Shown piece by piece: positions 32,224 to 64,000 of a stretch of 64,000 nt of DNA. How positions within the stretch are numbered: position 1 is the first letter of the stretch; each line of letters opens with the position of its first letter. The stretch comes from Falsiruegeria mediterranea M17. Its GTDB lineage: Bacteria; Pseudomonadota; Alphaproteobacteria; Rhodobacterales; Rhodobacteraceae. Under the pieces are notes generated by a model. That model was not told the origin of the DNA, ran no database searches, and worked only from the letters and a program-made list of their open reading frames with translations. The position numbers and the translations under genes are program-made. Location of the stretch: contig NZ_ONZG01000007.1 in NCBI RefSeq assembly GCF_900302455.1, positions 62,001-126,000 on the forward strand. The letters run 5' to 3'.

Positions 32224-33729
32224 TCAGAACCCCGCCCTTATTTCCAAAGCCTCATCCGCATCGTGACTGCTCCTGGTTAGACCAAATCGCTCGAGGCGAG
32301 CCACGAGCGTAGATTGGGCAACTTCCATTCCAAGTGCTCTTAGGGACTTCTGCAGATCCGCCATTCGAGCAATGCGCCCGGGTTTGGACGCGCACATGCT
32401 CGCCACTGCCACCAGCCATTCTTGCCCGGGTTCAACAACCGTGAAACGGCCCGCACCACGTAGTAATGCATACAAGTCAGATTTCTTGTTCTCGCTCCGA
32501 TCAAGAAGAGAATACCGGATCGTTTCCTTTAGGTTTTTGCCCCCCCCGGAGATATCCGCCTCGAGCGCTTCGGCGACATCTTGCGCGATGTTTTGCCCGG
32601 ACTCCTCAATTGCACCACGCGCGGCTCGCAGCCATTCAACGAGACCGTTCTCAACGTCATCAAAATCACAAGGAGGCCTGATTACGGGTGGCTTTTCTAC
32701 CCCGTCTTCGACAGACGGTTTCGCCAGCCTATCCAAGAGCTCCAAGCAAGCAGATCCTTCCGCCACGAGCCTGTTAATAGTTGGGCCAACATCTGCTTCC
32801 GATGTGCCGTGCCTGTCATCCCAGGCCAGGAGGCGATTTCCCTCGTCCATAGCTATGGACACGGTTTTCTCCGGGTTTCGTTCTGCCACCAGACCAGCGA
32901 CCATTCTCCTCGCCAAGTGCATCTCGAAGAGAAAACCAGCCCCGATGGCTGTACGTGCAATACATGAAGCCCAATCCGTCCAACGTCTTCTCGGCATGGC
33001 GTCAATCCACCCGGATGAACAAAGGTTTCCCCAACTCTCGGCAAACCAATGGAACGGTGTGCTTGGGTATTGTTCGAGCCATCTCGGAACCCGAATTCCT
33101 GTTTTGAGTGATTGCGTGCTTTTCTCGACGATCGCTGCTGGCGCGTCTTTCAAGTCTGTGGGCAAGAGCACTTTGATGGCCTCAACAGCCCAGGCCGGAA
33201 TTCCTCCTTGGCCAGCACCATTGACGGCCCCTACCCATTGGGACGCCGCCGATCTCGAACCTCCACCCAGTGCATACATCTGCTCCACGATCCGAGCGAT
33301 ATTTGCAGGGTTGTCTTTGCCCGTTACACCGCGTCTTTCTTGAAGCAACGCGGCTTCTATCATGAGTGGGGTTGCAGTTGTGCGCGCCGAATTTCGGGAA
33401 GTGGGTGCCTCAATATCATCAAGAAGACACCTTACCGCGACATCTCGGTCTTCGGCCTTCCTGATACCCAACTGTTGCTCCAGCACCGAAGCTACTTCCA
33501 AAAACCTTTCATCGCCCATCTTTGGTCGCGTTTGAAAAGGGTCAACTCGGTTCCCTGGCTTGGTTACATTTCGAACAGAATAAACAATTCCTTTTGTTCC
33601 TCCCCCTTCATCCAACTTCGAAGCGCAATGGGGTGGTGCAAGGGACCACGCCAACTCAGACATGAAAAGTTCTCGCGAAGGGATATATTCCGGGCGGTTC
33701 AAACCAAGGAATGAGGTGTCTTTCGCCAT
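32224..33729 (-). CDS. Unknown protein, middle gene of the DndFGH-like operon
   Basis: A 501-residue protein starting MAKDTSFLGLNRPEYIPSRELF. No catalytic motif is recognised. The C-terminal 60 residues (RMADLQKSLRALGMEVAQSTLVARLERFGL) look like a winged helix, hinting at DNA binding. It lies 14 bases after the upstream ATPase gene and two bases before the nuclease/HerA gene, so co-expression is near certain. Position and size resemble DptG, but sequence similarity cannot be judged by eye. Confidence 0.75.
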   Translation of the reverse strand: MAKDTSFLGLNRPEYIPSRELFMSELAWSLAPPHCASKLDEGGGTKGIVYSVRNVTKPGNRVDPFQTRPKMGDERFLEVASVLEQQLGIRKAEDRDVAVRCLLDDIEAPTSRNSARTTATPLMIEAALLQERRGVTGKDNPANIARIVEQMYALGGGSRSAASQWVGAVNGAGQGGIPAWAVEAIKVLLPTDLKDAPAAIVEKSTQSLKTGIRVPRWLEQYPSTPFHWFAESWGNLCSSGWIDAMPRRRWTDWASCIARTAIGAGFLFEMHLARRMVAGLVAERNPEKTVSIAMDEGNRLLAWDDRHGTSEADVGPTINRLVAEGSACLELLDRLAKPSVEDGVEKPPVIRPPCDFDDVENGLVEWLRAARGAIEESGQNIAQDVAEALEADISGGGKNLKETIRYSLLDRSENKKSDLYALLRGAGRFTVVEPGQEWLVAVASMCASKPGRIARMADLQKSLRALGMEVAQSTLVARLERFGLTRSSHDADEALEIRAGF

Positions 33730-35768: not shown

Positions 35769-35931
35769 TAGCCTCAACACAACTCTTGCGAATATTCCAC
35801 GAGATCTTTCTCGCACGGTTTCGGCGGTTATCCAAGCTCGTTGAAGGCATGCTGATAATCCAATTCGCCAAGGCCATGAATACGCCCAGAGCTCCTCGTA
35901 ACTACTTGAAACTCAATTGCTCTCGAGAACA

Positions 35932-48261: not shown

Positions 48262-49236
48262 ATGTCCTACTCAAAAGCTATTGATTTGTTGCGTCTTGCG
48301 GATTTCGCTGCAGCCAGGCATCGGGGTGTTACCCTGCAAGAGATCGAAGATGAATTCCAGGTAGCGAGACGTACTGCACAACGCATGACTAACGCCTTGG
48401 AACAAGCCTTTCCCATCGCCGTTGAAATCTTGATTGATCCAGATCGCACAAAACGATGGACCCTTCGCGAATCCCCGCTGGCCCGACTGAAAATGCACGG
48501 AGACGAAGAACTCGAAGCCCTCGACTACTCAATTGAAAGGCTGTCAGAGAACGGAGACCTTCGACAAAGGAATGCGCTTGCCGCGCTCCGGGATCGGTTG
48601 ATGGCAGCGCTGCCCACCCGGGAGGCACGTCGCCTGGAAGCCGATGCTGAGTGGATGCTGGAAGCTTACGGTGTGGCAGCCAGGCCAGGACCCTCAACGC
48701 AAATTTCGAAGGAAATCAGTGAAACCATTTCGGATGCCATCCGAGGTCCCTATCTGCTGCACTTTTCCTACAAAGGCACGGTACGACTGGTTGAACCATA
48801 CGGCGTCCTCCTCGGTGCCCGCCGATACCTGGTCGCGAAAAGCCCGGGCGAACAGACCATGAAACATTTCCGGCTCGATTTGATCGATTCAGCTGAAGTG
48901 ATCGACGAGTTTTTCGACCGCGATCCGAATTTTGATCTCAACGACCACGCAGCCCATGCTTTCGGATCATTTCAGAGCGCCGATGAATATGGCCCGGTTC
49001 TTTGGAGGTTCACTCCAGATGCAGCCCAACGTGCGGCGGAGTGGCATTTCCATCCGGCCCAACAGGCTGAACTCCAAGAAGATGGGTCACTCGACGTTCG
49101 ATTTGCAGCCTCTGGCTGGTTGGAAATGGCGTGGCATCTGTACCAGTGGGGAGACAGCGTAGAAGTCCTCCACCCACCGCAACTGGCCAAATTGGTGAAG
49201 GGATTCCAACGCGGCGATTTCAACGCACTACCCTGA
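48262..49236 (+). CDS. WYL-domain transcriptional regulator (YafY/PafC type)
   Basis: A 324-residue regulator. The N-terminal 70 residues are a winged helix (RGVTLQEIEDEFQVARRTAQRMTNALE), and the WYL-type domain (about 150-230) includes LLHFSYKGTVRLVEPYGVLLGARRYLVAKSPGE. WYL proteins bind nucleic acid or nucleotide ligands and often control defence operons. It is co-directional with the SbcD-like operon, 140 bases upstream of it. Confidence 0.9.
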   Translation: MSYSKAIDLLRLADFAAARHRGVTLQEIEDEFQVARRTAQRMTNALEQAFPIAVEILIDPDRTKRWTLRESPLARLKMHGDEELEALDYSIERLSENGDLRQRNALAALRDRLMAALPTREARRLEADAEWMLEAYGVAARPGPSTQISKEISETISDAIRGPYLLHFSYKGTVRLVEPYGVLLGARRYLVAKSPGEQTMKHFRLDLIDSAEVIDEFFDRDPNFDLNDHAAHAFGSFQSADEYGPVLWRFTPDAAQRAAEWHFHPAQQAELQEDGSLDVRFAASGWLEMAWHLYQWGDSVEVLHPPQLAKLVKGFQRGDFNALP

Positions 49237-49376: not shown

Positions 49377-50510
49377 ATGACAGGAATTCGTTTCCTCCAC
49401 ACCTCTGACCTTCATCTGGGCAAAGCCTATGGACGATTTGATGAGGATGTGACCGCAGATCTTCGCCAGGCACATGCCGAGATCATTCCTGCATTGATCA
49501 AGGCCGCGGATGAACACGGTGTTGAACACATCCTTCTTGCCGGCGACACATTCGACCAGGAAACTCCTTCGCCCCGCCTCATTCGGCAAACCATTACGGC
49601 GATGGCAGAGGCGGATCAGCTGAGCTGGTGGATCATTCCGGGCAACCACGACAGCCTGACGGCCGATCTGATCTGGCAGACCTTCGCGGAACATGCCCCT
49701 GAAAACGTGAAGGTGCTGCGCGACAATACGCCAGTCGCCATCACCGAAGGGGCCTATCTTCTGCCCGCCCCCTGCCCGCGCCGAAAATCGGGGTATGATC
49801 TGACCGAGGCCATGATGCATCAAGAAACACCTGATGGGGCTTTGCGCATCGGCCTTGCGCACGGTGGTGTCGTGGATTTCCGCCCAGACGAACCCAGTGC
49901 AGAGACCATCCCGCCCGATCGTGCCGAACGCGCCAACCTGGACTACCTGGCTCTGGGTGATTGGCACGGCGCCCTGGAGATCACGCCGCGCACACATTAT
50001 TCGGGCGCGCCGGAACGGGACCGGTTCAAGCACACTGGGCGCGGCACCTGCCTTTTGGTCTCGCTCGACGCCGCGGGCAATGTTCCGGTGGTCACGGATA
50101 TCCCGATGGGAAAATATGACTGGCAGGAACTGGAGCTGCCGCTGTCGCCCGGGCTTGATGCGGTATCCAATCTCATGGAACTCCTGCCAGACGACAGCAG
50201 CAATTGGCGCAACACGCTCGTCAAGTTGCACCTTCAGGGGTACGTCCACCTTGATCAGAGGATGGCTTTGATGGAGCAGATCCAAAGGATCGCCCCGGAA
50301 TTTTGCCATTTCGAATGGAGCGACCACCAGCTTCACACTGAATACCAACCCGATGATCTGGATCAGATTGCCCGCGGTGGGGCCCTTCGCATCGCTGCTG
50401 AGGCCTTGAAGGAAGAAGCAGATGACGGCGACCTTGCCCGATCAGACAGGGACATCGCCGACGCGGCGCTGACGCGACTCTACAGCCTTGTGAAGGAGGC
50501 CGCGGAATGA
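49377..50510 (+). CDS. SbcD/Mre11-like nuclease (metallophosphoesterase)
   Basis: A 377-residue protein with the Mre11/SbcD motifs in order: HTSDLHLGK, LLAGDTFDQE, IPGNHDSL, GLAHGGVV and ALGDWHG, which bind two metal ions. With an SbcC-like partner this is a DNA end-processing nuclease. The ATG at 49377 gives MTGIRFLHTSDLHLGK. It overlaps the next gene by four bases (ATGA). It is shorter and more divergent than housekeeping SbcD, and its operon partners mark it as a specialised paralogue. Confidence 0.88.
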   Translation: MTGIRFLHTSDLHLGKAYGRFDEDVTADLRQAHAEIIPALIKAADEHGVEHILLAGDTFDQETPSPRLIRQTITAMAEADQLSWWIIPGNHDSLTADLIWQTFAEHAPENVKVLRDNTPVAITEGAYLLPAPCPRRKSGYDLTEAMMHQETPDGALRIGLAHGGVVDFRPDEPSAETIPPDRAERANLDYLALGDWHGALEITPRTHYSGAPERDRFKHTGRGTCLLVSLDAAGNVPVVTDIPMGKYDWQELELPLSPGLDAVSNLMELLPDDSSNWRNTLVKLHLQGYVHLDQRMALMEQIQRIAPEFCHFEWSDHQLHTEYQPDDLDQIARGGALRIAAEALKEEADDGDLARSDRDIADAALTRLYSLVKEAAE

Positions 50511-53131
50511 AACTCCTGTCGATCCGTATGAACAACGTCCGTCGCTTCACGCAACCCGTTGAAATAACTGATATTGGTCCGGGTCTGAATGTGCTCGCAG
50601 CACCGAATGAACAGGGGAAATCGACCCTCTTCGACGCCATGCATGCGCTGTTTTTCTTCGAGGCCAAATCCTGGAAGCAGAAAGAGGCGGCCAGCCTTGC
50701 ACCACATGCAGGTGGCAACCCTGAAATTTCTGCCGACATCGAAGTGGATGGACAATCCTACCGGGTTTCGAAGGTGTTCTCGTCAAAGAAAGGTCAACAG
50801 AGTGTCACGGTTCATCGAGATGGTCACCTGATCAAGCAGGCCGAAGACGCCGAGGAGTGGATCCGCTCCCTGATCAAACCACCCAAGGATGGTGGCCCGG
50901 CCGGCCTGCTTTGGGTGCGTCAGGGGCTGACATCACTCCATTCCGGGAAGGATGACGACACGCTGGCCGCGCGGCGCGATCTGCTGTCCTCCGTGGCAGG
51001 CGAGATCGAAGACATCACCGGTGGCCGCCAGATGGAGAAGATTCGCGCCAGGTTGAAAAGCGATCTTGAGACCTATCTGACCAAGTCAGGCGCCATCAAA
51101 AAACACGGGCCTCTCTGGGAAGCAGAGCAAACCGTCGCAAACTTGGACGACCAGAGGGTGGATTTGCGGAGCAAGGTCGAACAGCTGCGCGCCAAGCTGG
51201 TGGAACGGCGCGCGTTACAGGACGAAAAAACCGCGCTTGTTGATCCCGTTGCCATGAAGGAAAGAGTGGACGCGTTGGAGGCTGCTCGAGCTGCATTGAA
51301 GGCATCTGAGGCCCACCAGGAAAACCAGGCAAAAGCGGACGAAGCCCAGCAAACAGCTCGGCTTGTACTGGAGGCCCATCAGGGCCGGATCAAAACGGCT
51401 GAAGAACAGTTGTCGGAGTTCCGCGACGCGAAGAAAGCACTGGATGAACTCCAGCAGAGCGTTGCCGGGGCCGAGGATCAACTGGACGCGGCAACACAGG
51501 GTTTGGAAAGGGCCAAGATCGCAGAGCAGGAGGCACGAAAAAACCAAATCTCTGCAGAAGAAACCCGTGATGCGGCACAGGCTGCTGAGGCCGACCGAAA
51601 AGGGGCGGACCGTCGGCAGGAGTTGGTAAAGCGCCTGGAAGAGGCCCAAGGCCATTCCTCCGAGGCCGCAGCCGCCAGAAAAACGATCGGCGGGTCCCCT
51701 GATGCCGGCCAGATGGAGCGACTGGAAGAGGCTTGGCAGGAGCTCGACCTTTTGAAGCGTTCCCGCGAAGCCTCGGCCGCTGCCATCACTTGGACGGCAG
51801 ATGCCGGTCAACAGGATCGGGTGTCCTTGGATGGCAATCCTTTGGCCCCCGGGCATCGTGTGGCCCTGCCCGATGGCGGAGACATCGCTGTCGCCGGAGT
51901 TGGGTCCATCCGCGTGCACCCGGCTGAACAACGTGAGGAAGCCGCATTGGATGAGGCGCAGGCAGAATTCGACGCTGCGCTCGAAGCGGCTGGTTGCTCG
52001 ACGCTGCAGGCAGCCCGGCAGTCTGAAAAAGAACGCAAATCTGCTGAAGACACCCTGCGAGATGCGAACGCAAAACTGAGGATTGTGGCACCTGAGGGGA
52101 TGCAGGCCCTGATGGACGAGATCGCCAGCTTGCCCGAAACCGTCGCAGAAGATGCATCCCTTCCCTCTGCCGCAGATGCAGACGCCGCCTTCCGCACCGC
52201 AAGAGATAAGCACAACCAACTCCTGGCTGATTTGGAAGGGGTTCGCACCGATCATGATGCCAAACGCGGGGATGCGCGGGAACTTCGGGCCCGTCGAGAC
52301 GAAGGACAAAACCGGATCGATCGGGCGACAAGCACCATCGGAGATCCGGTAGAAGCAGACCGTGAGTTGGAGGCGCTGCGAGAAAAATCACCTGAGTTTG
52401 AGGGAGCCCTGGAGAAGGCCAAGCAAAATGTTCAGGAGCTTGCGGCAAATGCGCCGGACCTTGCGCTCGCCCAAGCCGGGGCGACCCGCGCGCAGAATGT
52501 GGTCGATCAGGCCGACAAACGCTCGGGTGAGGTCAATATTCAGCTGGCAAAGCTCGAGACCGAAATCTCAATCGAAGCGGATCTGTCTGTCGAGGAAAAA
52601 CTTCGGGAAGTCGAAGGAAAACTGGAAACCGCACGATCCCATGCCGAACAGGTTCAGGCCGAAGTGAAGGTACTTCAACGGCTCGATGCGGCCCTATCCG
52701 AGGCCCAGAAACAGGCGCATGACGCCTACATCGGCCCGATCCGCAATGAACTGCGTCCGCTCCTGAGCATGGTGTTGCCCGGCGCAGAATTGACCCTGGA
52801 CGCCGACAGTGTGCTGCCGACCGGGCTGTCTCGTCCGCAGGGCGAGGATAGCTACGACCAATTGTCCGGCGGCACCCAAGAGCAGATCGCATTGCTGGTT
52901 CGTCTGGCATTTGCGCGTCTTCTGACCAAATCCGGAACCCCTGCCCCGATCATCCTGGATGATGCGATTGTCTATACCGATGACGACCGCATTGAACGCA
53001 TGTTCAACGCCCTGACCCAGCAAGCCGGTGACATGCAGATTATTGTTCTGTCGTGTCGCCAGAAAGTGTTCCGTGGTTTGGGAGGCCAGACGCTGGCGAT
53101 CCGGCAGGCCACAAGAGAGGTCAGCGCATGA
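50507..53131 (+). CDS. SbcC/Rad50-like coiled-coil ATPase
   Basis: An 874-residue SMC-type ATPase. Walker A AAPNEQGKSTLFDAMHALFF lies near residue 35; two long coiled-coil arms rich in Glu, Ala and Lys fill about 190-750; the signature LSGGTQEQIALLVRLAFAR is near 785 and Walker B PAPIILDDAIVYTDDDR near 815. It should tether and open DNA ends for the SbcD-like nuclease. The central hinge lacks an obvious zinc-hook CxxC. Overlaps both neighbours by four bases. Confidence 0.87.
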   Translation: MKLLSIRMNNVRRFTQPVEITDIGPGLNVLAAPNEQGKSTLFDAMHALFFFEAKSWKQKEAASLAPHAGGNPEISADIEVDGQSYRVSKVFSSKKGQQSVTVHRDGHLIKQAEDAEEWIRSLIKPPKDGGPAGLLWVRQGLTSLHSGKDDDTLAARRDLLSSVAGEIEDITGGRQMEKIRARLKSDLETYLTKSGAIKKHGPLWEAEQTVANLDDQRVDLRSKVEQLRAKLVERRALQDEKTALVDPVAMKERVDALEAARAALKASEAHQENQAKADEAQQTARLVLEAHQGRIKTAEEQLSEFRDAKKALDELQQSVAGAEDQLDAATQGLERAKIAEQEARKNQISAEETRDAAQAAEADRKGADRRQELVKRLEEAQGHSSEAAAARKTIGGSPDAGQMERLEEAWQELDLLKRSREASAAAITWTADAGQQDRVSLDGNPLAPGHRVALPDGGDIAVAGVGSIRVHPAEQREEAALDEAQAEFDAALEAAGCSTLQAARQSEKERKSAEDTLRDANAKLRIVAPEGMQALMDEIASLPETVAEDASLPSAADADAAFRTARDKHNQLLADLEGVRTDHDAKRGDARELRARRDEGQNRIDRATSTIGDPVEADRELEALREKSPEFEGALEKAKQNVQELAANAPDLALAQAGATRAQNVVDQADKRSGEVNIQLAKLETEISIEADLSVEEKLREVEGKLETARSHAEQVQAEVKVLQRLDAALSEAQKQAHDAYIGPIRNELRPLLSMVLPGAELTLDADSVLPTGLSRPQGEDSYDQLSGGTQEQIALLVRLAFARLLTKSGTPAPIILDDAIVYTDDDRIERMFNALTQQAGDMQIIVLSCRQKVFRGLGGQTLAIRQATREVSA

Positions 53132-56100
53132 AACGTGACGACGGCGCCCTCCGGCTTTCGGCATCCGATCTGATGCAATTCATGGCGTGTCCACACGCGA
53201 CGAAACTGGATCTGTTGCGCCTGAACGGTATCGGCCCCAAGGACGTCGAGGACAGCGAAGATGCCGCTTTGCTGCAAAAACGCGGCGATGCCCATGAGGC
53301 AGCTTACCTGGCTATTCTGAAGGATCAGGGAAAGTCTGTTATCGGCATCGATACAGACGGTATCCCTTTCGCCCAGTCAGTCACCAAAACCTTGGAAGCG
53401 CTCGCAGAAGGACCCGAGATCGTTTTTCAAGGCGCCCTCGAAGGCGGTATGTGGGGCGGCTATTCCGATTTTCTGGAACGTGTCGAACGCCCGTCAAATC
53501 TCGGCGCCTATTCCTACGAAGTGGCCGATACCAAATTGAAGCGCAAGCCCGCCCCCGGGCATATTCTGCAACTGGTTCTCTACTCCGACCTTTTGGAACA
53601 AATCCAAGGCCTGGCACCTGAACACGCCCATGTCGTGCTGGGGAGCGGCGAACGGTTCACCTTTCGTCTGGCCGAATACGCGGCGTATGCGCGGGGAGCG
53701 CGGGCTCGTCTCGAAGAGTTCGTCTCCGACCCAGCCCAAACGCGCCCGATCCCATGCGCCACCTGTGACCTTTGCCGCTGGCGCGAGCATTGTGCGGAGA
53801 CATGGCGCGACGAAGACAGCCTCTTCGAGGTTGCAGGGATCAGCAAGTCGCAAGTGAGCAAGCTGGAAGCTCATGGGATCACAACCCTCCAAGCCCTTTC
53901 CGAATTCGGAGGCACTGTGCCGCGCATGGCCCCCGAAACACTTGGTAAACTGACGTCACAGGCACGGCTTCAACAAGCCCGCAAATCCGGCCCTCCATCC
54001 CACGAATTGCGCCCACGCCAACCGGGCAAGGGGTTTGACCTTTTGCCGCGTCCTGCCGAAGGAGACCTATTCTACGACATCGAAGGGGATCCGCATTACG
54101 AAGAGGCCGGAGCGGATGGTCTGGAATACCTACACGGACTCTGGGACGGAGAGAATTTCACGGCTTTCTGGTCGCATAATCGTGCCCAGGAAAAGCAGGC
54201 CCTGATAGAACTGTTTGCCTTCTTCGAAGAGCGCATCCGTCGCCACCCGAAAGCCCGCATCTATCACTACGCTCCTTACGAAATCACGGCCCTTCGCCGC
54301 CTGACGACACAGCATGGCATGGGCGAAGCTCAATTGGATGGCTGGCTGAGGGAACACCGGTTTATTGATCTATACAGCGTTGTGCGTGGTGGTGTTGTCG
54401 CCTCGGAACGGTCCTATTCGATCAAATATCTCGAAGCCTTCTATGACGTTGAACGCGAGGGAGAAGTGACCACCGCCGGCGGCTCTGTTGTGGCCTACGA
54501 GAACTGGCGCGAAGCCGGGGGACAGGACATCCTCGACGAGATCGAGGATTACAACCGCATCGACTGTGTTTCGACCGAACTGCTGCGCGACTGGCTGCTG
54601 TCGATCCGGCCCGATGACATGGAAACCTGGCACGACCTCGTCGAGCCCGATTCCGAGAAGGTCCAAGTTCAGGAAGAGGCCGCACAAGAATTGAAAGAAA
54701 TGCTGGAGGCCTCGGACCTGCCCTCCGAACGCCAGCAACTTCTATACGATCTCGGTATATTCCACTGGCGTGAGGGAAAGCCGGCGGCATGGGCCGTATT
54801 TGACGCAGCTCAGAAGTCTTTTGAAGAGCTATGTGACGACTTGGATTGCCTGGCAGGTCTGCGCGCGGTCGGCCCTCAGATGACAGACAAGAAATCTTGG
54901 GCCCGAGACTATACCTACCCCTTGCAGGAGACCAAGCTCCGTGCCGGAAAGTCAGCCGTGCACATTCTTCCAGATGGACAGCCTGTTAACTTGAGTGTTG
55001 GAAGGATTGATCGAGGAAATCATTCGCTAACCTTGCGCATTGGAAAGGCCCAGGGTGTCGATCTTCCCGACCGTCTTAATTTGCTGCCTAACTTCGCCAT
55101 TAAGTCCGACCCGATCCCTGATGCGATCGCAGCAGTAGCGTCCGATCAATGCGGTGCTAAGGCAAACCGCGCCGCGGATGACCTTCTGTCCCGAAATCCC
55201 CCCAGGTTTCAGAACGGCTTCGCGTTGCAAGACGACCCTAACGGGGATCCCGTAGAAACCCTGAAGACCGCGGTAGGCGCCATGGACGAGACCGTTTTGC
55301 CGGTCCAGGGCCCTCCTGGCACCGGTAAGACCTATGTGACAGTCCGGGCCATCCTGGCCCTTGTCAGGGACGGCAAGCGTGTCGGGGTCGCCTCAAACAG
55401 CCATGCTGCGATCCGAAATGTTCTGATGGGCTGTGTCGATGCCTTGGAAGACGATGATTTGGACATCACTCTTGAAGATGTGGAGATTGCGCACAAGGAA
55501 GGTCAGGGTATGGACCCCTTGCCCGATGGGTACGAGAGCATCGCAGCCATCAAGGGCAATCAGGATCAGCGCCTGACAGGCGCGCATGTGGTTGGCGGAA
55601 CCGCCTGGCTCTTTTCCCGCCCGGAATTGGCCGATACTTTCGACTACCTGTTTGTTGATGAGGCAGGCCAAGTGTCTTTGGCAAACCTGATCGGCATGTC
55701 AAACGCCGCACGAAACCTGGTGCTGATCGGCGACCCCCGTCAGCTCCCCCAGGTTGTTCAGGGCTCACATCCCCCACCCGCGGATCTTTCCTGCCTGGAC
55801 TGGATGCTGGGGGAACATGCGATCGTGCCCCCGGACCGAGGAATTTTCTTGTCCACGACACGACGGATGCACCCGGACCTGTGCACCTACATTTCTGAAC
55901 AATTCTATGAAGGCAGGCTTCATTCCCATGAAAGCACCGAGACCCAGCGGGTCGTGGCAACCACCCTCCCGCAAACCGGGGCGTGGATGGTGCCAGTCGA
56001 TCATGACGGATGTGCACAGGAATGCCCGGCAGAAATCGATGCAATCGTTCAAACCGTCGAAACTTTGCTCGAAGGAACATGGCGCGACAAGGAAGGGGTC

Positions 56101-56460
56101 GAGCGAGAGATACGCCCCAACGACATCATCGTTGTTGCCCCCTATAACGCGCAGGTAAACGCCTTGTCCGACGCCCTCCCCGGCATCCGCGTGGGCACCG
56201 TTGATCGCTTCCAGGGACAGGAAGCGCCGGTGGCCCTTGTCTCGATGACGGCATCATCTGCCGAAGAAACGACCCGCGGCCTCGAGTTTCTGCTCTCCAG
56301 GGAGAGGCTGAATGTTGCCGTGTCGCGCGGCAAGGCTCTCAGTTTTGTTTTCGCATCCCCTCGTCTTACGTCAACGCCCTGCGCAACCGTGGATCAAATG
56401 CGATTGGTCAACACACTCTGCGCCCTACCCCACTGGCCCACCGAAGGAACCGCGTCATGA
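53128..56460 (+). CDS. TM0106-type RecB-like nuclease fused to a DNA2/UPF1-type helicase
   Basis: A 1110-residue fusion. The N-terminal part (SDLMQFMACPHATKLDL start) has a RecB/Cas4-like nuclease motif YEVADTKLKRKPAPGHILQL near residue 133 and Cys residues CATCDLCRWREHC near 210 that could bind an Fe-S cluster. Residues 310-480 (FYDIEGDP start) resemble an RNase H-like exonuclease. The C-terminal SF1 helicase has Walker A QGPPGTGKTYVT near 725, DEAGQ near 841, GDPRQLPQ, VDRFQGQE and RLNVAVSRGK. A DNA-degrading helicase-nuclease is likely. Overlaps its neighbours by four bases each side. Confidence 0.87.
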   Translation: MKRDDGALRLSASDLMQFMACPHATKLDLLRLNGIGPKDVEDSEDAALLQKRGDAHEAAYLAILKDQGKSVIGIDTDGIPFAQSVTKTLEALAEGPEIVFQGALEGGMWGGYSDFLERVERPSNLGAYSYEVADTKLKRKPAPGHILQLVLYSDLLEQIQGLAPEHAHVVLGSGERFTFRLAEYAAYARGARARLEEFVSDPAQTRPIPCATCDLCRWREHCAETWRDEDSLFEVAGISKSQVSKLEAHGITTLQALSEFGGTVPRMAPETLGKLTSQARLQQARKSGPPSHELRPRQPGKGFDLLPRPAEGDLFYDIEGDPHYEEAGADGLEYLHGLWDGENFTAFWSHNRAQEKQALIELFAFFEERIRRHPKARIYHYAPYEITALRRLTTQHGMGEAQLDGWLREHRFIDLYSVVRGGVVASERSYSIKYLEAFYDVEREGEVTTAGGSVVAYENWREAGGQDILDEIEDYNRIDCVSTELLRDWLLSIRPDDMETWHDLVEPDSEKVQVQEEAAQELKEMLEASDLPSERQQLLYDLGIFHWREGKPAAWAVFDAAQKSFEELCDDLDCLAGLRAVGPQMTDKKSWARDYTYPLQETKLRAGKSAVHILPDGQPVNLSVGRIDRGNHSLTLRIGKAQGVDLPDRLNLLPNFAIKSDPIPDAIAAVASDQCGAKANRAADDLLSRNPPRFQNGFALQDDPNGDPVETLKTAVGAMDETVLPVQGPPGTGKTYVTVRAILALVRDGKRVGVASNSHAAIRNVLMGCVDALEDDDLDITLEDVEIAHKEGQGMDPLPDGYESIAAIKGNQDQRLTGAHVVGGTAWLFSRPELADTFDYLFVDEAGQVSLANLIGMSNAARNLVLIGDPRQLPQVVQGSHPPPADLSCLDWMLGEHAIVPPDRGIFLSTTRRMHPDLCTYISEQFYEGRLHSHESTETQRVVATTLPQTGAWMVPVDHDGCAQECPAEIDAIVQTVETLLEGTWRDKEGVEREIRPNDIIVVAPYNAQVNALSDALPGIRVGTVDRFQGQEAPVALVSMTASSAEETTRGLEFLLSRERLNVAVSRGKALSFVFASPRLTSTPCATVDQMRLVNTLCALPHWPTEGTAS

Positions 56461-57122
56461 GGAACATGCCCACGGACCTGACCTTTCAGGAGTTGAAGGA
56501 CAAACAACGCGAAATTCGCGATGGGTTCCCGGACGGCTTTGGCCTTCGAATTCACCGGGCCATCAGTTGGGTTGGGCGCGCGGAAAAGGCGGGTGACGAT
56601 CTCGACGCCGCCTTCCTGTTCTATTGGATTTCCTTCAACGCAGCCTATGCGGATGAACGCGATGTGCAGACTGAGCGCGACATGTTCAACTGGTTGTTCA
56701 CCCGCCTGACCGAGCTCGATCCAGAAAACCGCCTCTACACAGCAGTCTGGAACAGGTTCACAGGCCCGATCAGGCTCTTCCTTGAAAACCAGTATGTGTT
56801 TTCGCCATTCTGGTCCCATCACAACGGTCACCCCGGTTTTGAGGACTGGCAGGACCGCTTCGACAGAGCCCGCAGCGCCTTTCATCGAGCTCTCGCGGAA
56901 CAAAGAACTGTCGACATCCTGTCGATGCTGTTCGACCGGCTATATGTCCTGCGCAATCAGTTGATTCATGGCGGCGCGACCTGGAATTCGAGCGTGAACC
57001 GCGATCAGCTTCGGAACGGTGTTGCCATTCTGTCGGTCCAGATGCCGCTCATGATCGACATCATGATGGACAACGCCAATGAGGAATGGGGTAAGCCTTT
57101 CTATCCGGTTGTTGATAGTTGA
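56457..57122 (+). CDS. HEPN-domain protein, putative RNase effector
   Basis: A 221-residue all-helical protein with the HEPN catalytic motif Rx4-6H as RNQLIHGG (Arg near residue 166, His near 171). HEPN proteins of this type are RNases in toxin, CRISPR and abortive-infection systems; an Apea-like or MAE_28990-like subfamily is possible. The ATG overlaps the helicase stop (ATGA), so it belongs to the SbcCD-like operon. A start at 56466 is also possible. RNase activity is inferred from the motif. Confidence 0.8.
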   Translation: MRNMPTDLTFQELKDKQREIRDGFPDGFGLRIHRAISWVGRAEKAGDDLDAAFLFYWISFNAAYADERDVQTERDMFNWLFTRLTELDPENRLYTAVWNRFTGPIRLFLENQYVFSPFWSHHNGHPGFEDWQDRFDRARSAFHRALAEQRTVDILSMLFDRLYVLRNQLIHGGATWNSSVNRDQLRNGVAILSVQMPLMIDIMMDNANEEWGKPFYPVVDS

Positions 57123-57244: not shown

Positions 57245-59329
57245 TTGGAAAACAACGCACTGAATCAAGCCGGGGATTTGATATCGCACATTGGCTACGA
57301 AGTGGTCGATCTTGTTATTTCCTTTGCAGAGACGCTTACCAAATCTGAGAGTTCACCTGGTATTGTTGCGCTGCTTCTGGCAGCCGCACTGGTCATCACA
57401 AGCGTGACTTACTCCGTTCGGTGCTCTCGGCGTCTCAAGGCGATCCGCGAGATGCAAAGTATTGTAAGAGAATACGAGGGAATATCCGAATTCGCAGAGA
57501 GTTTCGAGAGTTTCAGAAGCAGATTGGATGAGAAGAAGGAAACCAGCAAAACATGGTTTACTCTTTGGCAGTCATGGGATGAATTTCGAGAAACAATTGT
57601 TCCTGACGACCTCGACGGACCAGTCATCCTCAGGAATTCCATTCGCCCGACGTCCTTTTTGAATGTGGAAGACCTTGGCTTTGGGCCGGGGCTTTATCGG
57701 ATACTACCCAATACCTTTGTCTCGCTCGGTCTGTTCCTCACGTTCCTCGGACTGGTTGCCGCCCTAAATCAATTTGCTGGAACGATGGGAAAAGAAGGAA
57801 CTTCAGGAGGGATGGACCAAGCCATGCAGAGCTTCATGATGATTGCGTCTGCCAAATTCATCATGTCCTTGGTCGGTCTTCTTTGTTCAATTTTGTTTAC
57901 AGTACTCCTGAGAAACCGAATTGGGGCGATCGATCGGGAACTCCACCAATTATGTTTGCTCATCGAAAGGCGCTTGGTATTCGTCAGCCTTGAGGATCTT
58001 GGTTTTCGTCAGCTTCGCGCCGCGACAGAGCAAAGAGAACACCTGCGTGAGATCGGTTTTGGCATGGTCGCGGAATTGAAGAAGCCACTTGATGCACTGC
58101 CTGAGCATATCACGAATTCTATCTCGGAGCGCATTGATCCCATCTTTGAAAAAGTTTCATCCATGGGAACCTCCAACATGGAAGGCCTGGTAGGTGACTT
58201 GTCCACGCAACTTTCTCATTCTGTGGGCAACGCCCTCAATCGAGCCAGCGAGTCTCTTGGGGAAGCATCTGATCGCATCGGATTGATGGTAGACAGAATG
58301 AACTCCTCTAATGCGCAAGCGGGTGAAGGACTTCAGAGCGCTTTGGGTGAGATGGCTAAGGCTCTTGGAGACATACGCACGCAAGTAGCCGCAGCCGGAG
58401 AAACTGCTTCTTCGGCAATGACCGAAGGTGCCGAGAAGTTGCTCGGTGTAATGAATGAAACCCTTACAGGCATCCGCGACAACACTTCCCAAGGAGCAGA
58501 CGCAATGCGGGTGGCGGCGGAAGACATGCGAAAGGCTTCGGAAGGTTTCCGCGAACAGCTTTCAGCAGCGACAGCGGAGAGCGTGACTGCCGTAGAGGCC
58601 CGTATGGAAGAAAGTTCTCAGAGTGCTGGAAAAGCGATCGAGGGCGCCGGTCAGGCCTTACTGACGGCTTTTGACGCAACCAGTCAGGACATCGCGCGTC
58701 TTGGCCACGAAATGGGCGAGACCATCGGCGACGACCTTATTGCTCGCATCGGTACGGTTGGGGAGCGACTGGAAAGTATGGCGGCAGCCATCCAGAATGG
58801 TGCGGATGGAGCCCGGAGCGCCGCGACAGGTCTTAAGGATGGTGCGAACGCAATCGCTGGCGCCTCCACAACTTTCAACACCGCAAGTCGAGATCTTATC
58901 GCTGCGTCAGAACCTATTCGATCCTCCCATGATCGAATAGAAGCAGGTCTGCGGAAACTTGGGACAACCGTTGAAAACGTTTCCGACACCTTGATGAAGA
59001 ATTCTTCTCAGATCGCTCAAAATGCCAGCCACGTGCTTGAAACCGCACAATCTGCTCTTGGGAGCGAACGTGAGGGAATTCGGGGATCACTGGAAGCGAC
59101 CCGAGCGGCACTGGCTCAACTTTCCGAAGAGGCCGAAAAGCTCGATCAGATTGACGAGATGCTGGGTAGAGCCCTTCTACAGTACAACACCCAACTCGAG
59201 GCTGCGTTGGGCTCTGCCCAGGACCACGTATCCCAGATGCGTGATACGCTGGCACCCGGCATCGACACCTTGAAGAGCGTGGTCGACCAAGCCGAAAGCT
59301 TTATGCCTGCTCAAACACGGAGAGCCTGA
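57245..59329 (+). CDS. zorA: ZorA, MotA-like channel subunit of a type I Zorya system
   Basis: A 694-residue protein with three to four membrane segments (about 38-58, 150-180, 195-225) of the MotA/TolQ/ExbB kind, for example LPNTFVSLGLFLTFLGLVA, then a long cytoplasmic helical tail with heptad-like Ala/Ser/Glu repeats (residues 260-690). ZorA and ZorB form a proton-driven motor anchored in the inner membrane that triggers the nuclease components on phage infection. The start appears to be TTG at 57245 (after CGGAG); the next ATG would remove the first membrane segment. The stop overlaps zorB (TGATG). Confidence 0.93.
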   Translation: MENNALNQAGDLISHIGYEVVDLVISFAETLTKSESSPGIVALLLAAALVITSVTYSVRCSRRLKAIREMQSIVREYEGISEFAESFESFRSRLDEKKETSKTWFTLWQSWDEFRETIVPDDLDGPVILRNSIRPTSFLNVEDLGFGPGLYRILPNTFVSLGLFLTFLGLVAALNQFAGTMGKEGTSGGMDQAMQSFMMIASAKFIMSLVGLLCSILFTVLLRNRIGAIDRELHQLCLLIERRLVFVSLEDLGFRQLRAATEQREHLREIGFGMVAELKKPLDALPEHITNSISERIDPIFEKVSSMGTSNMEGLVGDLSTQLSHSVGNALNRASESLGEASDRIGLMVDRMNSSNAQAGEGLQSALGEMAKALGDIRTQVAAAGETASSAMTEGAEKLLGVMNETLTGIRDNTSQGADAMRVAAEDMRKASEGFREQLSAATAESVTAVEARMEESSQSAGKAIEGAGQALLTAFDATSQDIARLGHEMGETIGDDLIARIGTVGERLESMAAAIQNGADGARSAATGLKDGANAIAGASTTFNTASRDLIAASEPIRSSHDRIEAGLRKLGTTVENVSDTLMKNSSQIAQNASHVLETAQSALGSEREGIRGSLEATRAALAQLSEEAEKLDQIDEMLGRALLQYNTQLEAALGSAQDHVSQMRDTLAPGIDTLKSVVDQAESFMPAQTRRA

Positions 59330-60426
59330 TGCGCGCGCAAGCAAGACGGGTCTCTCATGAAGAGGAAGAAGAAAGCGCGTTCGTGTCGATGACCGATATG
59401 ACGGTTGGGTTTCTATTTATCATCATGATCTTGCTGGCATTTTTCGCCAGTCAAATGCGAGATTCCGATACTGTTTCTCGATCAGTTTTCGAAAAGGTTT
59501 TGGCCGAGCGTGATATATGGCGTGAACGGGCCGAAACCCGAGCTGAACGAATTTCACAACTTGAAGAACAAGTCTCTCAGCTCGAAAAAGAGCGCGACGA
59601 GTTGAAGCTTCAGCGTGATGATCTTCAAGAAAAGCTGAGGCTCGCACACGAGAAGATTGACGAGCAAGACGCAAAAATCGCGGACCTCAAAGCGCACATA
59701 GCGGAACTTGAACAGCTAATTAAGAAATTGAAGACACAGCTTTCTGAGAAGGAGCAAAAAATCCAAGAACTCCAAAAGCGCTTGGAAGAATTGGAAGCGG
59801 CAGACCCCCTCGAAGTTTACCTGGCCCAAGTAGCTCAAACCCGGCGAGAGGTTCTCGTGCGTCTGAAGGATGCGATCCAATTGGATTTCCCCACTCTGCA
59901 GGTTGAACTAAGCGAAGAGAGTGATGCACTGCGTTTCCAAGGCGAAGGATTATTTGCGTCTGGTCGCTCAGCCTTCACCTCGGACAAGCGTCGCATCGTC
60001 GAAAAACTCGCACAGCGCCTTGACCAGGTGCTGCCCTGTTACACGATCGGGGAAAAGTCCAAATTCAACACCACCTGCAATCCGGGTTTCGTCATGATCG
60101 AAGCTGTGCAGATCGAAGGTCATACCGATATTACTGGCTCGGACAGACGAAACCGCGAACTTTCGACGAACCGTGCAAACAATACCTTCTTTGCCATGAC
60201 CAATGCAGCTCCAACGGTCATGGAACACCGAAACCTCAAGGCACAACCCGTCTTGTCTGTCGCCGCCTATGGGCCTGACCGCCCAGTGGCGACCAATGAA
60301 ACACCAGCCGGAAGGGCCACGAACCGTCGCATCGATTTGCGCTTCATTATGGTAACTCCTCAACGCTTGGAGGGTATTGAGACAATTCGGGCGGCACTTG
60401 AAGGCCTTAGTGGGGACGAACAATGA
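59329..60426 (+). CDS. zorB: ZorB, MotB-like subunit with OmpA peptidoglycan-binding domain
   Basis: A 365-residue protein. A short cytoplasmic start is followed by one membrane helix (MTDMTVGFLFIIMILLAFFA, with the Asp typical of MotB-type proton paths), a coiled coil of about 100 residues (YLAQ.. after KRLEELEAA) and a C-terminal OmpA-like domain (QIEGHTDITGSDRRNRELSTNRA) that binds peptidoglycan. The ATG shares bases with the zorA stop, and its stop overlaps zorC. Confidence 0.94.
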   Translation: MRAQARRVSHEEEEESAFVSMTDMTVGFLFIIMILLAFFASQMRDSDTVSRSVFEKVLAERDIWRERAETRAERISQLEEQVSQLEKERDELKLQRDDLQEKLRLAHEKIDEQDAKIADLKAHIAELEQLIKKLKTQLSEKEQKIQELQKRLEELEAADPLEVYLAQVAQTRREVLVRLKDAIQLDFPTLQVELSEESDALRFQGEGLFASGRSAFTSDKRRIVEKLAQRLDQVLPCYTIGEKSKFNTTCNPGFVMIEAVQIEGHTDITGSDRRNRELSTNRANNTFFAMTNAAPTVMEHRNLKAQPVLSVAAYGPDRPVATNETPAGRATNRRIDLRFIMVTPQRLEGIETIRAALEGLSGDEQ

Positions 60427-61736
60427 AAGGCAGCGACGTTCTGAGTAATCGTCCTGCAATGACCGTGCACGCCATGCCGGCGCTCGACCCAATCCGAAGC
60501 GCAGTTGGACGTGTCCTGAAACGTTGGCCCGACGCGGTCAAAGTTCCTCAAGACCACAACAGAGAGCGCATGGCGATGGAGATGCTAAACCGTGTGCAGC
60601 GCTGGTCCTGGGATGGTGTGAAAACGTCTTTCATCAATTCCGCTGCCGTCGCGGTGTTCGACAGCCAAAGACGCGAGCGGGCCGACCTTGCCCAAGTGCG
60701 AGACTTCTATCTGGCAGAAATTAACGCGCGGCCTGCCGGCGCCTTTCTGAATGCGATGGTCTGGGTATATATCGACAGTTTTTCCCCTAAGGCATCCCAT
60801 ACGCGGGATTTGGCCAAAGCCCTGAACGCCAGGAAAGATTCACTTGGCGCACGAGCACAATCCCTTGTCGGCGAGATCCCAGACTTCTTCTCTCCCTCTC
60901 GCACCGCCAGCGCACTTGGGAAAGTCATGCAGGAATCTTCCGATCCTTTCGTTCACCTAAAAAAAATCGGCTTCCGGACACCCCACGGTACTGGGCTATG
61001 TCAGCATGCACATCAAGATTTCATAGAACGGATTACTCCCAAGCTCCGAGACAAAGACGCTCGGGATCAACTGTACCGATGGCTCATGCCAAACGAGGGA
61101 TCGGTGCTTCAAACCGGTGCGACAAAGGCCGTTGAATCCCTACTCTCGGTTTGGCGAGACAAAATGCCCTCTGACGACGTCAGACACGAAATCAGTGAAG
61201 CCATAATTGGCGCCTACAACGATCCTCGCATCCACCATGGTGGGATCTGGCCAGGCTTCGACCCTGACCTTCGCGAGGTCTTGATGCGCTGGTTGACCAA
61301 GCAGGATATGAAATTCTTCTGCGATACGGTCACGGCCACCCAATCAAGCCACCATTGGCCTCCGAGGCGCGATTTCTGGCTGAACCTTTATGATGATGGA
61401 ATGATAGACGAAGCCTGGGTGGCGTTCGGGTCAAGCGCCAGGCGATACGCCCAGACAAATCTGGTGAAATCAGGGACCACCGATCTGAAACACCGTTTCG
61501 GGCGGCAGTTGGATCGAGGCGGAAGCACATCGCTTCTCATCATGCGCATTGGGAGAAAAATTGTCGTAGATGGGTGCCACAGTTACAAAACCCATATTTT
61601 CGACAAAGACGACCCCAAAGCCCCGAAACTCTATGGTACTTACTACTACTGCGATGACATCATGCGTAGTTCCAGGCGGTCAAAGCCTCACAACTCCATC
61701 CCGAGCTGGAAGAATTGGGTGATGCAATATGTCTGA
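60423..61736 (+). CDS. zorC: ZorC, EH-signature-domain protein
   Basis: A 437-residue soluble protein in the zorC position. The C-terminal half includes GRQLDRGGSTSLLIMRIGRKIVVDGCHSY, which fits the EH_Signature domain that gives ZorC its name and binds DNA. Overlaps zorB by four bases and zorD by eight. The partner of ZorD in type I Zorya. Confidence 0.9.
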   Translation: MKGSDVLSNRPAMTVHAMPALDPIRSAVGRVLKRWPDAVKVPQDHNRERMAMEMLNRVQRWSWDGVKTSFINSAAVAVFDSQRRERADLAQVRDFYLAEINARPAGAFLNAMVWVYIDSFSPKASHTRDLAKALNARKDSLGARAQSLVGEIPDFFSPSRTASALGKVMQESSDPFVHLKKIGFRTPHGTGLCQHAHQDFIERITPKLRDKDARDQLYRWLMPNEGSVLQTGATKAVESLLSVWRDKMPSDDVRHEISEAIIGAYNDPRIHHGGIWPGFDPDLREVLMRWLTKQDMKFFCDTVTATQSSHHWPPRRDFWLNLYDDGMIDEAWVAFGSSARRYAQTNLVKSGTTDLKHRFGRQLDRGGSTSLLIMRIGRKIVVDGCHSYKTHIFDKDDPKAPKLYGTYYYCDDIMRSSRRSKPHNSIPSWKNWVMQYV

Positions 61737-64000
61737 CTCCTGCCCTGTCGCCAAAGTCTCTGAAGACGGTGTTGAGATTAGTTTTCCGAAAGAAAAGCGT
61801 GGCTTCCTGAACCGCTTCTTATCTTCTCGTGATGACACAAATTCCTTCCTACACCTTCCTGATGATCAGCGTGATCTACTCTTCGCCATTGCCGATCTCA
61901 GAAACTGGGGCGACTTGCACGAGAACGAGGTTCAAATTGAAAATGACTTTCTGCGCATTTCACACAATGCTGCGGCCAACCTTTCTTCGAATGCAGCCCA
62001 AACCCTTGGACTACCGGTAGACGTTGACCTAACTCTCAAAACGGACGTAACCGGCGTGTTAGGACACCCTGATTTTCGCCTCCACTACGAGTGGCACAGG
62101 CAAGGACAGCGGGAAATGCCACGACGAACTGGAGCATTTCTCGAAACCGCTCGTGGGATACGCAGGATCCCGCTCTGGATGAAGCGTGCACTGGACCTTG
62201 CGGACGGATTTGATCCCAACCGTCCGCTTGAAGAGCATTGGTCGGCATTGGCAGAATTCCGGCGTGCGCTGGAGCCCGATGAGATCATTCCAGACAGTCT
62301 GCCCGAAAACCAGCGGATGGCCGGGTTGGCCATGACGGCGTTTCTTCGCGGATTGCAGGTTCGCATTGCCAACCGGTTTTCAATTTCACCAGATCGCACT
62401 TTAGGGCACTTTGACATTATCCCCTACTCATCCGACAGCCTTGAGAACAATGCCATTTCCGAAGACGATATCTCCGAAAGCGACGCCGAACTGGAAGGTG
62501 AACCGCTCGCGGCATTTCAGTACAGAGTACAAGCCATCGGGGTTCGCCCAGCCTATCAACTCGGGAACAATTCCTACCTCGTAATTGACCGATCCAGCAC
62601 CCCGGTCCTTGAGGAAATGGTACGCGTACAGAATTCTGATCGAAACGAACGCAAGGCGTTCATCGAGAATCCGCGTACGTTCATCACAGAGGCTGTCAGT
62701 CGGCATCTAAAGGAAAACGGGGCTCTCGACGACCTCGACGAGGCCGAACAGCAGGAAGTGATTGAGGCAACTGCTGGCCCCGCGTTCATCGAAAGCGTTG
62801 AATACTCAGAGCGTGTGACTGGCGTTGTCATTTATGAGAAACCAACAGGCGACCGAGAGGGTAGCGGCACAGCCTGGCTTCCCGAAGTATTCCCGGAACA
62901 CATAGTTGACGCCATTGCCGAAATGCCCACTGCAGATCTCAAAACTCTGCGCGACCGAATGGCTGCAAGCCTCGAGACCAGCAACCAACCCATTGCTGCT
63001 ATTGCGGGCCAAGAGGTAGAGGTGACGGCGGCCAGGCTATCAGCCGTATCTGGCGAGCTAAATCGACGTGAGGCAGAGGATTCCGATCAAGAAATATCTT
63101 CTGATATTGAGGGTGAAGAGGACCTACATCCTGGTCCAATCATTCTCGATACACTGGACAATTTCGAAGAATTGTCGTGGCATGCCAAGCTGCATCCAAG
63201 GCATTCCGCCTTACCGATTTCTATCCCCGAAACCATCACGACTAAGCTTCGTCAGCACCAAATCGAGAGTTTCAACTGGGCAGCACAAGCTTGGTCAAGT
63301 GGACTACCCGGGATACTCAACGCAGATGAACAAGGGCTCGGCAAAACACTACAATCGATAGCTTTCCTGAACTGGCTTCAGGCTCACATGCAATCATCCG
63401 ACGCTGAAGATCGAGGCCCGATCCTGATCGTTGCCCCCACATCTCTACTCCGAAACTGGGAAGAAGAAGTGGAAAGGCACGTGGCACCTCGAAAGTTCGG
63501 CCACCTCGTTCGACTTTATGGCTCGTCTCTCTCCGGACACAAGCAGTCCGGGGCGCAAGGGACCGAAACCGGCAGTGGAATTCCCCTACTGGATTTCGAG
63601 TGGTTAACCGAAGCGATCGAGGAAGCGCGGGCTCACCGTTACTGGTTCCTAACCACCTATACTACGCTGGCAAACTATCAGCACTCTCTCGGTCGCATTC
63701 GCTTCTCAGCGCTTGTCATGGATGAGATCCAGAACATAAAGAATAAGGACACCATTGCCTCAAAAGCCGCTGAGGCAATGAACGCCGATTTTCGGATTGG
63801 TCTTACGGGTACCCCGATCGAAAACTCCGCGATGGACCTATGGACAATCATGGATCGCATTGCCCCCGGAGCGCTCGGTTCGGGGACGGATTTCAAATCA
63901 AGGTACAGAGATCCCGACGAAAGCAACATGGCCGAGTTGCACGACAGAGTTTTCAAGGGGCATGGTGGGCATCCCCCCTTGGGCCTTCGACGCCTGAAGG
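61729..64000 (+). CDS. zorD: ZorD, SNF2-type helicase/nuclease (cut by window end)
   Basis: An open frame from the ATG at 61729 (MSDSCPVAKVSEDGVEI) to the window end, 757 codons visible. After a 500-residue N-terminal region, the SNF2 helicase starts with Walker A NADEQGLGKTLQ near residue 533, then APTSLLRNW, DEIQNIKN (motif II) and LTGTPIENS (motif III). ZorD degrades or translocates on phage DNA in type I Zorya. The remaining helicase core and C-terminus lie outside the window. Confidence 0.93.
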   Translation, partial: MSDSCPVAKVSEDGVEISFPKEKRGFLNRFLSSRDDTNSFLHLPDDQRDLLFAIADLRNWGDLHENEVQIENDFLRISHNAAANLSSNAAQTLGLPVDVDLTLKTDVTGVLGHPDFRLHYEWHRQGQREMPRRTGAFLETARGIRRIPLWMKRALDLADGFDPNRPLEEHWSALAEFRRALEPDEIIPDSLPENQRMAGLAMTAFLRGLQVRIANRFSISPDRTLGHFDIIPYSSDSLENNAISEDDISESDAELEGEPLAAFQYRVQAIGVRPAYQLGNNSYLVIDRSSTPVLEEMVRVQNSDRNERKAFIENPRTFITEAVSRHLKENGALDDLDEAEQQEVIEATAGPAFIESVEYSERVTGVVIYEKPTGDREGSGTAWLPEVFPEHIVDAIAEMPTADLKTLRDRMAASLETSNQPIAAIAGQEVEVTAARLSAVSGELNRREAEDSDQEISSDIEGEEDLHPGPIILDTLDNFEELSWHAKLHPRHSALPISIPETITTKLRQHQIESFNWAAQAWSSGLPGILNADEQGLGKTLQSIAFLNWLQAHMQSSDAEDRGPILIVAPTSLLRNWEEEVERHVAPRKFGHLVRLYGSSLSGHKQSGAQGTETGSGIPLLDFEWLTEAIEEARAHRYWFLTTYTTLANYQHSLGRIRFSALVMDEIQNIKNKDTIASKAAEAMNADFRIGLTGTPIENSAMDLWTIMDRIAPGALGSGTDFKSRYRDPDESNMAELHDRVFKGHGGHPPLGLRRLK

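Follow-up and report, generated by a model that had tools for sequence, protein, structure and literature searches.

The window analysed here is a stretch of 64,000 nucleotides from Falsiruegeria mediterranea M17 (contig NZ_ONZG01000007.1, positions 62,001 to 126,000 of the forward strand; coordinates below count from its first letter). At 49377-57122 it carries four genes, for an SbcD-like nuclease, an SbcC-like ATPase, a TM0106-type RecB-like nuclease fused to a DNA2-type helicase (TM0106 for short), and a HEPN-type putative RNase. The best explanation for this locus, to which we give a probability of about 0.6, is that it represents a modular system with Dna2-like and HEPN components, in one of its combinations, directed against mobile elements, most likely against phages. 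The unit that is kept together consists of TM0106 and HEPN, usually with a WYL regulator; the SbcD-SbcC pair (SbcDC) belongs to a group of modules that can be exchanged for one another. We consider a defence role of the operon highly probable, its division into a core and exchangeable partners likely, and the detailed mechanism proposed below tentative.

A probable core with exchangeable partners

Among 147 related genomes, TM0106 was counted at a match of E 1e-90 or better, which admits 11 of the 21 genomes that match at E 0.001 (a truncated copy in G016 is included; a fragment in G008, with E 8.7e-37, and weaker matches are excluded). All 11 also hold HEPN, in G017 on a different contig, and HEPN is present in 6 of the 136 genomes without a counted TM0106; this co-occurrence has a Fisher p of 1e-12, uncorrected for relatedness. 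SbcC homologues occur in 24 of the 147 genomes, six of these among the 11, and SbcDC adjoins TM0106, and with it HEPN, in only three (G000, G003, and G006).

In a tree of the nuclease-helicase with 93 rows (those below 600 bits being excluded, hence L083 and L148 are not included), the window falls into a clade of 44 rows, with a value of 100 in the Shimodaira-Hasegawa-like approximate likelihood ratio test (SH-aLRT); counts in the tree and clade rest on the best 80 of at least 578 TM0106 relatives, plus plasmid and genome loci. HEPN lies within 3 kb of TM0106 in 29 of the 44 clade loci, versus 1 of the 49 rows outside the clade, and WYL within 3 kb in 30, with four more just ahead of the SbcDC pair (34/44). 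In the commonest layout, HEPN and WYL are divergent from TM0106, which is followed by the module; by a 6.5 kb rule this is SbcDC in 10 loci, McrBC in 14, a sacsin/Tiamat-like protein in 6, and none in 14 (five of these last have less than 3 kb of downstream sequence; the labels of L136, where McrBC also lies on the other side, and of L172 were assigned by hand). The partner modules run co-directionally with TM0106 and mostly abut it; the SbcDC pairs lie within 0.5 kb, at times with one small gene intervening.

A first-pass annotation, made from the letters of the sequence, had proposed the four genes together as a candidate defence system. The four seldom stay together, and as a set of fixed composition the candidate was rejected: the exact co-directional order is found in only two of the 44 clade loci (the window and G003); the content of SbcDC, TM0106, and HEPN, in any order, recurs in eight, two of them near-identical (L024, L126). 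L141 and L172 read WYL-SbcD-SbcC-TM0106 or WYL-SbcC-TM0106, without a HEPN match, the contig of L172 stopping at the TM0106 gene.

The evolutionary distances of the proteins, compared without the near-duplicates L147, L170, L126, and L172, are correlated most closely between TM0106 and HEPN (rho 0.90, n=26), followed by McrC (0.66, n=14), WYL (0.65, n=30), and McrB (0.49, n=15); for TM0106 and SbcC the value is 0.13 (n=8, p 0.26). The first of these values, the presence of HEPN in 11 of 11 genomes, the window's ATGA overlap between TM0106 and HEPN, and the repetition of their order in L079, L116, and L148 make it unlikely that the locus consists of two uncoupled units: a WYL-HEPN module, either toxin-antitoxin-like or stand-alone and abortive, and a separate DNA-degrading system made up of TM0106 and its partners. 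Such an arrangement would agree with the divergent placement of WYL-HEPN in most HEPN-bearing clade relatives, and with the occurrence of HEPN without TM0106 in 6 of the 147 genomes and in a helicase-nuclease operon of a Fuscovulum plasmid.

The Fuscovulum operon (L023, 11236-26211) encodes WYL, an ADP-ribosylglycohydrolase, HEPN, a PD-(D/E)XK nuclease, and a UvrD helicase; a Leisingera plasmid has a similar operon, with HEPN not between those genes. A protein family of 485-554 residues (cluster c26) adjoins TM0106 or HEPN in L079, L090, L147, and L148, its L090 member being without a Pfam or PADLOC match. The 1113-residue open reading frames next to HEPN in L087 and L096 were found to be unrelated.

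Exchange of the partner module

The partner proteins are McrB and McrC (AAA_5, McrBC), sacsin-domain giants, and a TmtA/Tiamat-like protein of 1406 residues (PADLOC 7e-254). L116 may serve as an example, with the order ZorA-ZorB-ZorC-(D-position gene)-TM0106-HEPN-McrB-McrC and without SbcDC; within 40001-64000 of the window, neither McrB nor McrC is matched by profiles built from the relatives, and no Tiamat (TmtA) or sacsin-domain giant was found.

Repeated pairing is apparent for SbcC, in a tree of 32 rows, all recruited via similarity to the window protein or to a profile from such matches (L113, where a short TM0106-like piece lies behind SbcC, is labelled standalone). The TM0106-linked sequences fall into five pairs, with standalone SbcC in between on branches starred in the tree; the linkage requires at least five changes (gains or losses), every one forced by starred branches, which fits repeated recruitment. 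These five separate pairings, each co-directional and no more than 0.5 kb from TM0106, and the overlap of four bases between the window's SbcC-like gene and TM0106 speak against the reading that SbcDC has no part in the mechanism and is a repair pair captured next to the core. We regard such a capture as quite unlikely, although SbcDC is found in just 10 of the 44 clade loci and its distances to TM0106 are uncorrelated on eight loci. One result runs counter to a TM0106-HEPN core with exchangeable partners: in the seven loci that have all of the genes, the correlation is 0.73 for HEPN-SbcC, 0.61 for HEPN-TM0106, and 0.35 for TM0106-SbcC.

Defence setting and mobility

Neighbours of TM0106 and of standalone SbcDC loci were sampled at random from open reading frames of at least 250 residues (for TM0106, 92 of 145; as control, the first 92 in a list of 100 taken from 134 were aligned). 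At 1e-25, the 92 neighbours of TM0106 loci match 104 PADLOC families (DrmD, DpdF, GajB, PsyrT, and others) and those of the control a single one, mad3, in nine proteins; these figures count families, and a single protein may match many. The mad3 matches are assumed to represent generic ABC-type ATPases. The defence-island setting suggested at first pass thus holds for the TM0106 loci; it does not extend to standalone SbcDC loci, which have almost no known defence genes nearby.

TM0106-HEPN has Zorya genes next to it in three loci (the window, L116, L148), and in G003 a ZorA homologue, distant at 32%, lies about 7 kb from the operon; the adjacent Zorya is of type I by the PADLOC models for ZorA, ZorB, and ZorC. 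Synergy has been reported among systems arrayed with Zorya (PMC12458937).

The operon is part of an island of about 50 kb. The congener G002 is collinear with the window up to 20991 and again from contig position ~132885 (window coordinate ~70885), from which it follows that it lacks about 50 kb lying between a pair of inverted tRNA-Asn genes. The island extends from 20821-20895 to ~70885, past the window, and contains a methyltransferase, a DndH-like gene, IS66, an integrase-like gene, the SbcDC-TM0106-HEPN operon, and Zorya. The empty-site comparison rests on G002, G001 being unsuitable because its contig ends; in G003, 19.5 kb beside the same tRNA gene are without a match to the island, the operon being located elsewhere in that genome.

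Leisingera, Aminobacter, and Sphingobium have conjugative plasmids that carry relatives with HEPN, TM0106, and a module. Viral contigs yielded 37 relatives of the TM0106-helicase, many of them helicase-only, and six of HEPN; one contig of this set (25,089) equals a Roseovarius contig in size, and viral origin is thus doubtful.

These observations bear on two further explanations. A DNA-repair operon for end resection at chromosomal breaks, with an incidental defence context and HEPN as a passenger, is very unlikely: TM0106 occurs in just 11 of 147 relatives, with HEPN in every one, the operon sits on an island that a congener lacks and has relatives on conjugative plasmids, and its partner is exchanged for McrBC in clade relatives. 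Repair would be in keeping with Mre11-Rad50-Dna2 as a known resection set, and with an SbcDC pair of this family that stands alone amid metabolic genes in Thioclava, the neighbours of such pairs matching only one PADLOC family. A target other than phages, namely plasmids or conjugation, we judge quite unlikely; its attraction lies in the conjugative plasmids that carry relatives, where competition between plasmids is plausible, and in the precedent of SMC-like complexes able to act on plasmids (Wadjet). Anti-phage Zorya, which adjoins in the window, L116, and L148 and has its distant homologue in G003, argues for phages instead, as do HEPN RNases, which are typical of abortive phage defence according to PMC3710099.

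Other genes of the island may be noted here. At 26702-32221 (-), a protein of 1839 residues shows C-terminal similarity to DndH (8e-59); the adjacent 32224-33729 and 33744-35816 have no PADLOC match at 1e-8 and no Pfam match at 1e-3, and the three genes possibly form a further unnamed defence operon. A DNA cytosine methyltransferase-like gene (25231-26688, +; 4.6e-82) lies beside an HhH-GPD base-excision repair gene (24345-25061, -).

The proteins of the operon

The fusion of a TM0106-type nuclease to a DNA2-type helicase, as described in the first-pass annotation, is borne out by NCBIfam, in which the model TIGR03491 ('TM0106 family RecB-like putative nuclease') scores 266.9 bits (cut-off 97.45; 3.6e-79), and by Pfam, which places an RNase H-like domain (PF13482) and a UPF1/DNA2-type helicase (AAA_11/AAA_12) on the same chain. 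D114, D134-T135-K136, D844-E845-A846, and the Walker A motif do not vary in an alignment of 12 rows, nor do C21, C213, C216, and C222, whose conservation is 90% or more in 20 rows; we take these residues to include nuclease and Fe-S positions, by analogy with nucleases of the RecB/Cas4/Dna2 type. The full-length predicted model has a predicted local distance difference test score (pLDDT) of 87.2, and its first three Foldseek matches in the PDB are all Dna2 (E 1.2e-26 to 2.2e-25); the alignments span 1106-1228 columns, with a poor superposition of the whole chain (root-mean-square deviation, rmsd, of 23-25).

The SbcD-like protein of the window has all five phosphoesterase motifs (DLH, GDTFD, GNHD, AHGG, GDWH), and its D35, D81, N114, H115, H186, and H221 are invariant in 33 rows (the numbering starts at the TTG with which the long open reading frame opens). 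Likewise invariant, in 32 rows, are the Walker A motif (G37-K38-S39-T40), the signature residues S787 and G789, and the Walker B residues D818-D819 of the SbcC-like protein. Families and catalytic motifs thus agree with the labels first given to the two proteins, which need qualification in two respects: the SbcD-like protein scores 55.3 bits with the NCBIfam SbcD model TIGR00619, below its cut-off of 77.65, and the SbcC-like protein shows no CxxC in the middle part that was searched, 31 of 32 homologues likewise lacking this zinc hook, which genuine SbcC/Rad50 have; the protein is therefore SbcC-like, not SbcC.

The same SbcDC family is also seen in other settings. The Thioclava pair mentioned above lies amid genes for transporters and metabolism; on a Rhizobium phaseoli plasmid (L026, 1896-11625), SbcD-SbcC come immediately after a DUF3320 protein of 1993 residues that matches the TM0106 profile and represents a different helicase-type partner; and L092 (G076) and L095 (G010) have the order WYL-SbcD-SbcC-HEPN without TM0106, the HEPN of L095 being a fragment. 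A second, distinct SbcC/SbcD-like pair (clusters c14 and c20) adjoins HEPN or TM0106 in L020, L090, L147, and L175; in L090 it is composed of an AAA_27 ATPase and a phosphoesterase.

The HEPN protein, of 221 residues and all-helical in its predicted model, carries the motif RNQLIH at residues 166-171, as first reported; R166 and H171 are invariant in 21 of 21 aligned relatives, in support of the family assignment, and R-x4-H is present in 43 of 45 profile matches, the remaining two being a fragment and a hybrid. Its model has no Foldseek match in the PDB at E 0.001 or better and compares weakly by VIA-align, and its profile finds nothing convincing among PDB sequences (at the top an ApeA protein, E 0.83). 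Profile matches occur in 9 of 385 genomes of the class; four fall into a single genome (G173, contigs C17 and C122).

Proposed mechanism

Mre11-Rad50 recognises DNA ends, which Dna2 resects. For the present locus, the gene families, motifs, Dna2-like domain make-up, linkage of the core, exchange of modules, and island context are established from sequence and phylogeny; extending the resection scheme to it, we infer DNA-end sensing, the order of events, the activation of HEPN, and the role of WYL as follows. The core would be formed by the Dna2-like nuclease-helicase and the HEPN RNase, usually with the WYL regulator, and DNA recognition would fall to the separate module beside it, here the Mre11-Rad50-like SbcD/SbcC, elsewhere McrBC or the sacsin/Tiamat-like giants. 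SbcDC would bind invading DNA at ends that are free or abnormal and nick or trim them; the Dna2-like protein would then unwind and degrade the DNA from the ends so processed; and the products of processing, or its failure, would release or activate the HEPN RNase, which as a second line may cleave RNA and arrest the infected cell. A halt of this kind resembles what PMC3710099 proposes for HEPN proteins beside restriction systems, namely that they act if defence at the DNA level fails; the same source describes PrrC and RloC, in which SbcC/Rad50-like ATPases control a HEPN RNase. The WYL protein, presumed to be the operon's controller, would set expression, possibly via bound nucleic acid. WYL proteins are found close to defence systems, and single-stranded nucleic acid is a ligand of some WYL domains (PMC9122601); the one encoded here could thus also sense the products of processing.

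In a more general and more doubtful form, the locus may be an immune machine built like eukaryotic end-resection, in which a Dna2-like hub with HEPN and a WYL sensor accepts plug-in front ends, recruited repeatedly and independently, and is sometimes joined by Zorya. The Mre11-Rad50-like front end would respond to free DNA ends, McrBC to modified DNA, and the sacsin/Tiamat-like proteins to some other cue, and a single HEPN effector could serve these several detectors by reading the progress of resection. If true, the sensor-swapping logic of bacterial immunity would reach a Dna2-like hub, Mre11-Rad50-type end recognition would be tied to phage defence, and the recurrence of unrelated modules (SbcDC, McrBC, sacsin/Tiamat-like) by one nuclease-helicase would be accounted for; hubs with different front ends should then recognise different invaders, with the HEPN output in common.

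Layout of the locus

The genes of the locus and its neighbours are listed in Table 1. All three junctions within the operon are four-base overlaps, just as first described, each with the sequence ATGA; all genes lie on the plus strand, and the position between a WYL regulator and Zorya is confirmed, with 140 bases from the end of the WYL gene to the ATG of the SbcD-like gene and 122 bases from the HEPN stop to the start of ZorA. Four-base overlaps are commonplace in operons, so they point to coupling of the genes, not to novelty.

Table 1. Genes of the SbcDC-TM0106-HEPN locus and its neighbours, in window coordinates.
Feature	Coordinates	Strand	Basis and remarks
WYL-domain transcription regulator (WYL + WCX)	48262..49236	+	Pfam WYL and WCX above cut-off; PADLOC WYL 1.2e-26
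SbcD/Mre11-like metallophosphoesterase	49377..50510	+	ATG start at 49377; Pfam PF00149 4.2e-9
SbcC/Rad50-like ATPase without zinc hook	50507..53131	+	SMC_N PF02463, SbcC_Walker_B PF13558
TM0106-type RecB-like nuclease + RNase H-like + UPF1/DNA2-type superfamily 1 (SF1) helicase	53128..56460	+	TIGR03491, PF13482, AAA_11/AAA_12; ATG at 53128 taken as start, mechanical open reading frame begins at 53053
HEPN-type putative RNase with RNQLIH	56457..57122	+	
ZorA (neighbour, not core)	57245..59329	+	TTG start as listed; PADLOC ZorA1 3e-247
ZorB (neighbour)	59329..60426	+	PADLOC ZorB1 8.4e-116
ZorC (neighbour)	60423..61736	+	PADLOC ZorC1 3.1e-157
ZorD-position gene (neighbour)	61729..64000, runs on beyond the window to 64866	+	Open reading frame clusters with ZorC-adjacent genes in L116 and L148

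Comparison with known systems

Scans with PADLOC (2023) and NCBIfam (June 2026) place no gene of the four in any named defence system, the matches being weak or of part length, and the only NCBIfam model above its cut-off for any of them is TIGR03491, a nuclease domain family; identity with an already-named system was accordingly rejected. Among open-licence articles, no description of TM0106/COG2251/TIGR03491 proteins in defence was found, and titles and abstract openings did not describe the set of SbcD/SbcC, nuclease-helicase, and HEPN. As a candidate system without a name in the two databases, the original proposal therefore stands; as a fixed four-gene unit, it does not.

The nearest described parallel found are the CoCoNuTs, which combine McrBC, a UPF1-like helicase (CnuH), and HEPN (CnuE) (PMC11090510). 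Types II and III share with the present system a UPF1-like SF1 helicase and a HEPN RNase, and McrBC is found in 14 of the 44 clade relatives; the helicase of the window differs in carrying a RecB-like nuclease, and SbcDC takes the place of McrBC. Moreover, CnuE is described there as a winged helix-turn-helix (wHTH) joined to an effector, whereas the HEPN protein of the window stands alone; thus neither of the two CoCoNuT features examined, McrB/McrC (CnuB/CnuC) and the wHTH-effector CnuE, was seen in the window.

McrBC (type IV restriction) and the Tiamat (TmtA)/sacsin giants resemble SbcDC in occupying the partner position behind TM0106, in 14 and 6 of the 44 clade loci, respectively; Tiamat, listed as TmtA in PADLOC, is a single-gene system. 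The SbcC-like protein has a weak likeness to the SMC-like ATPases of Lamassu and MADS (PADLOC LmuB 5e-18, mad3 3e-9), but none of their other components is matched among the four genes, and its partner here is SbcD-like. With Mokosh (MkoA/MkoC) and PLuB there is similarity in the helicase domain (MkoA 2.2e-48; PLuB 81 bits, cut-off 999), the top-scoring stretches lying in the helicase part of the TM0106-type protein, and the partners differ.

PrrC/RloC and the HEPN proteins linked to restriction-modification, as described in PMC3710099, are similar in that the window, too, has a HEPN RNase in addition to an SbcC/Rad50-like ATPase; unlike in PrrC/RloC, HEPN is a separate protein here, and the enzymes acting on DNA are SbcDC and the Dna2-like nuclease-helicase.

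In its domain make-up, the TM0106-type protein is closest to eukaryotic Dna2, in which a RecB-like nuclease is likewise joined to a UPF1-type SF1 helicase, and it is partnered here by Mre11/Rad50-like proteins, as Dna2 is by Mre11-Rad50. It departs from Dna2 in its additional RNase H-like domain (PF13482), and superposes poorly over the whole chain (rmsd 23-25); the operon departs from the Dna2/Mre11-Rad50 set in an SbcC-like protein without zinc hook and in the addition of HEPN and WYL, on a mobile island.

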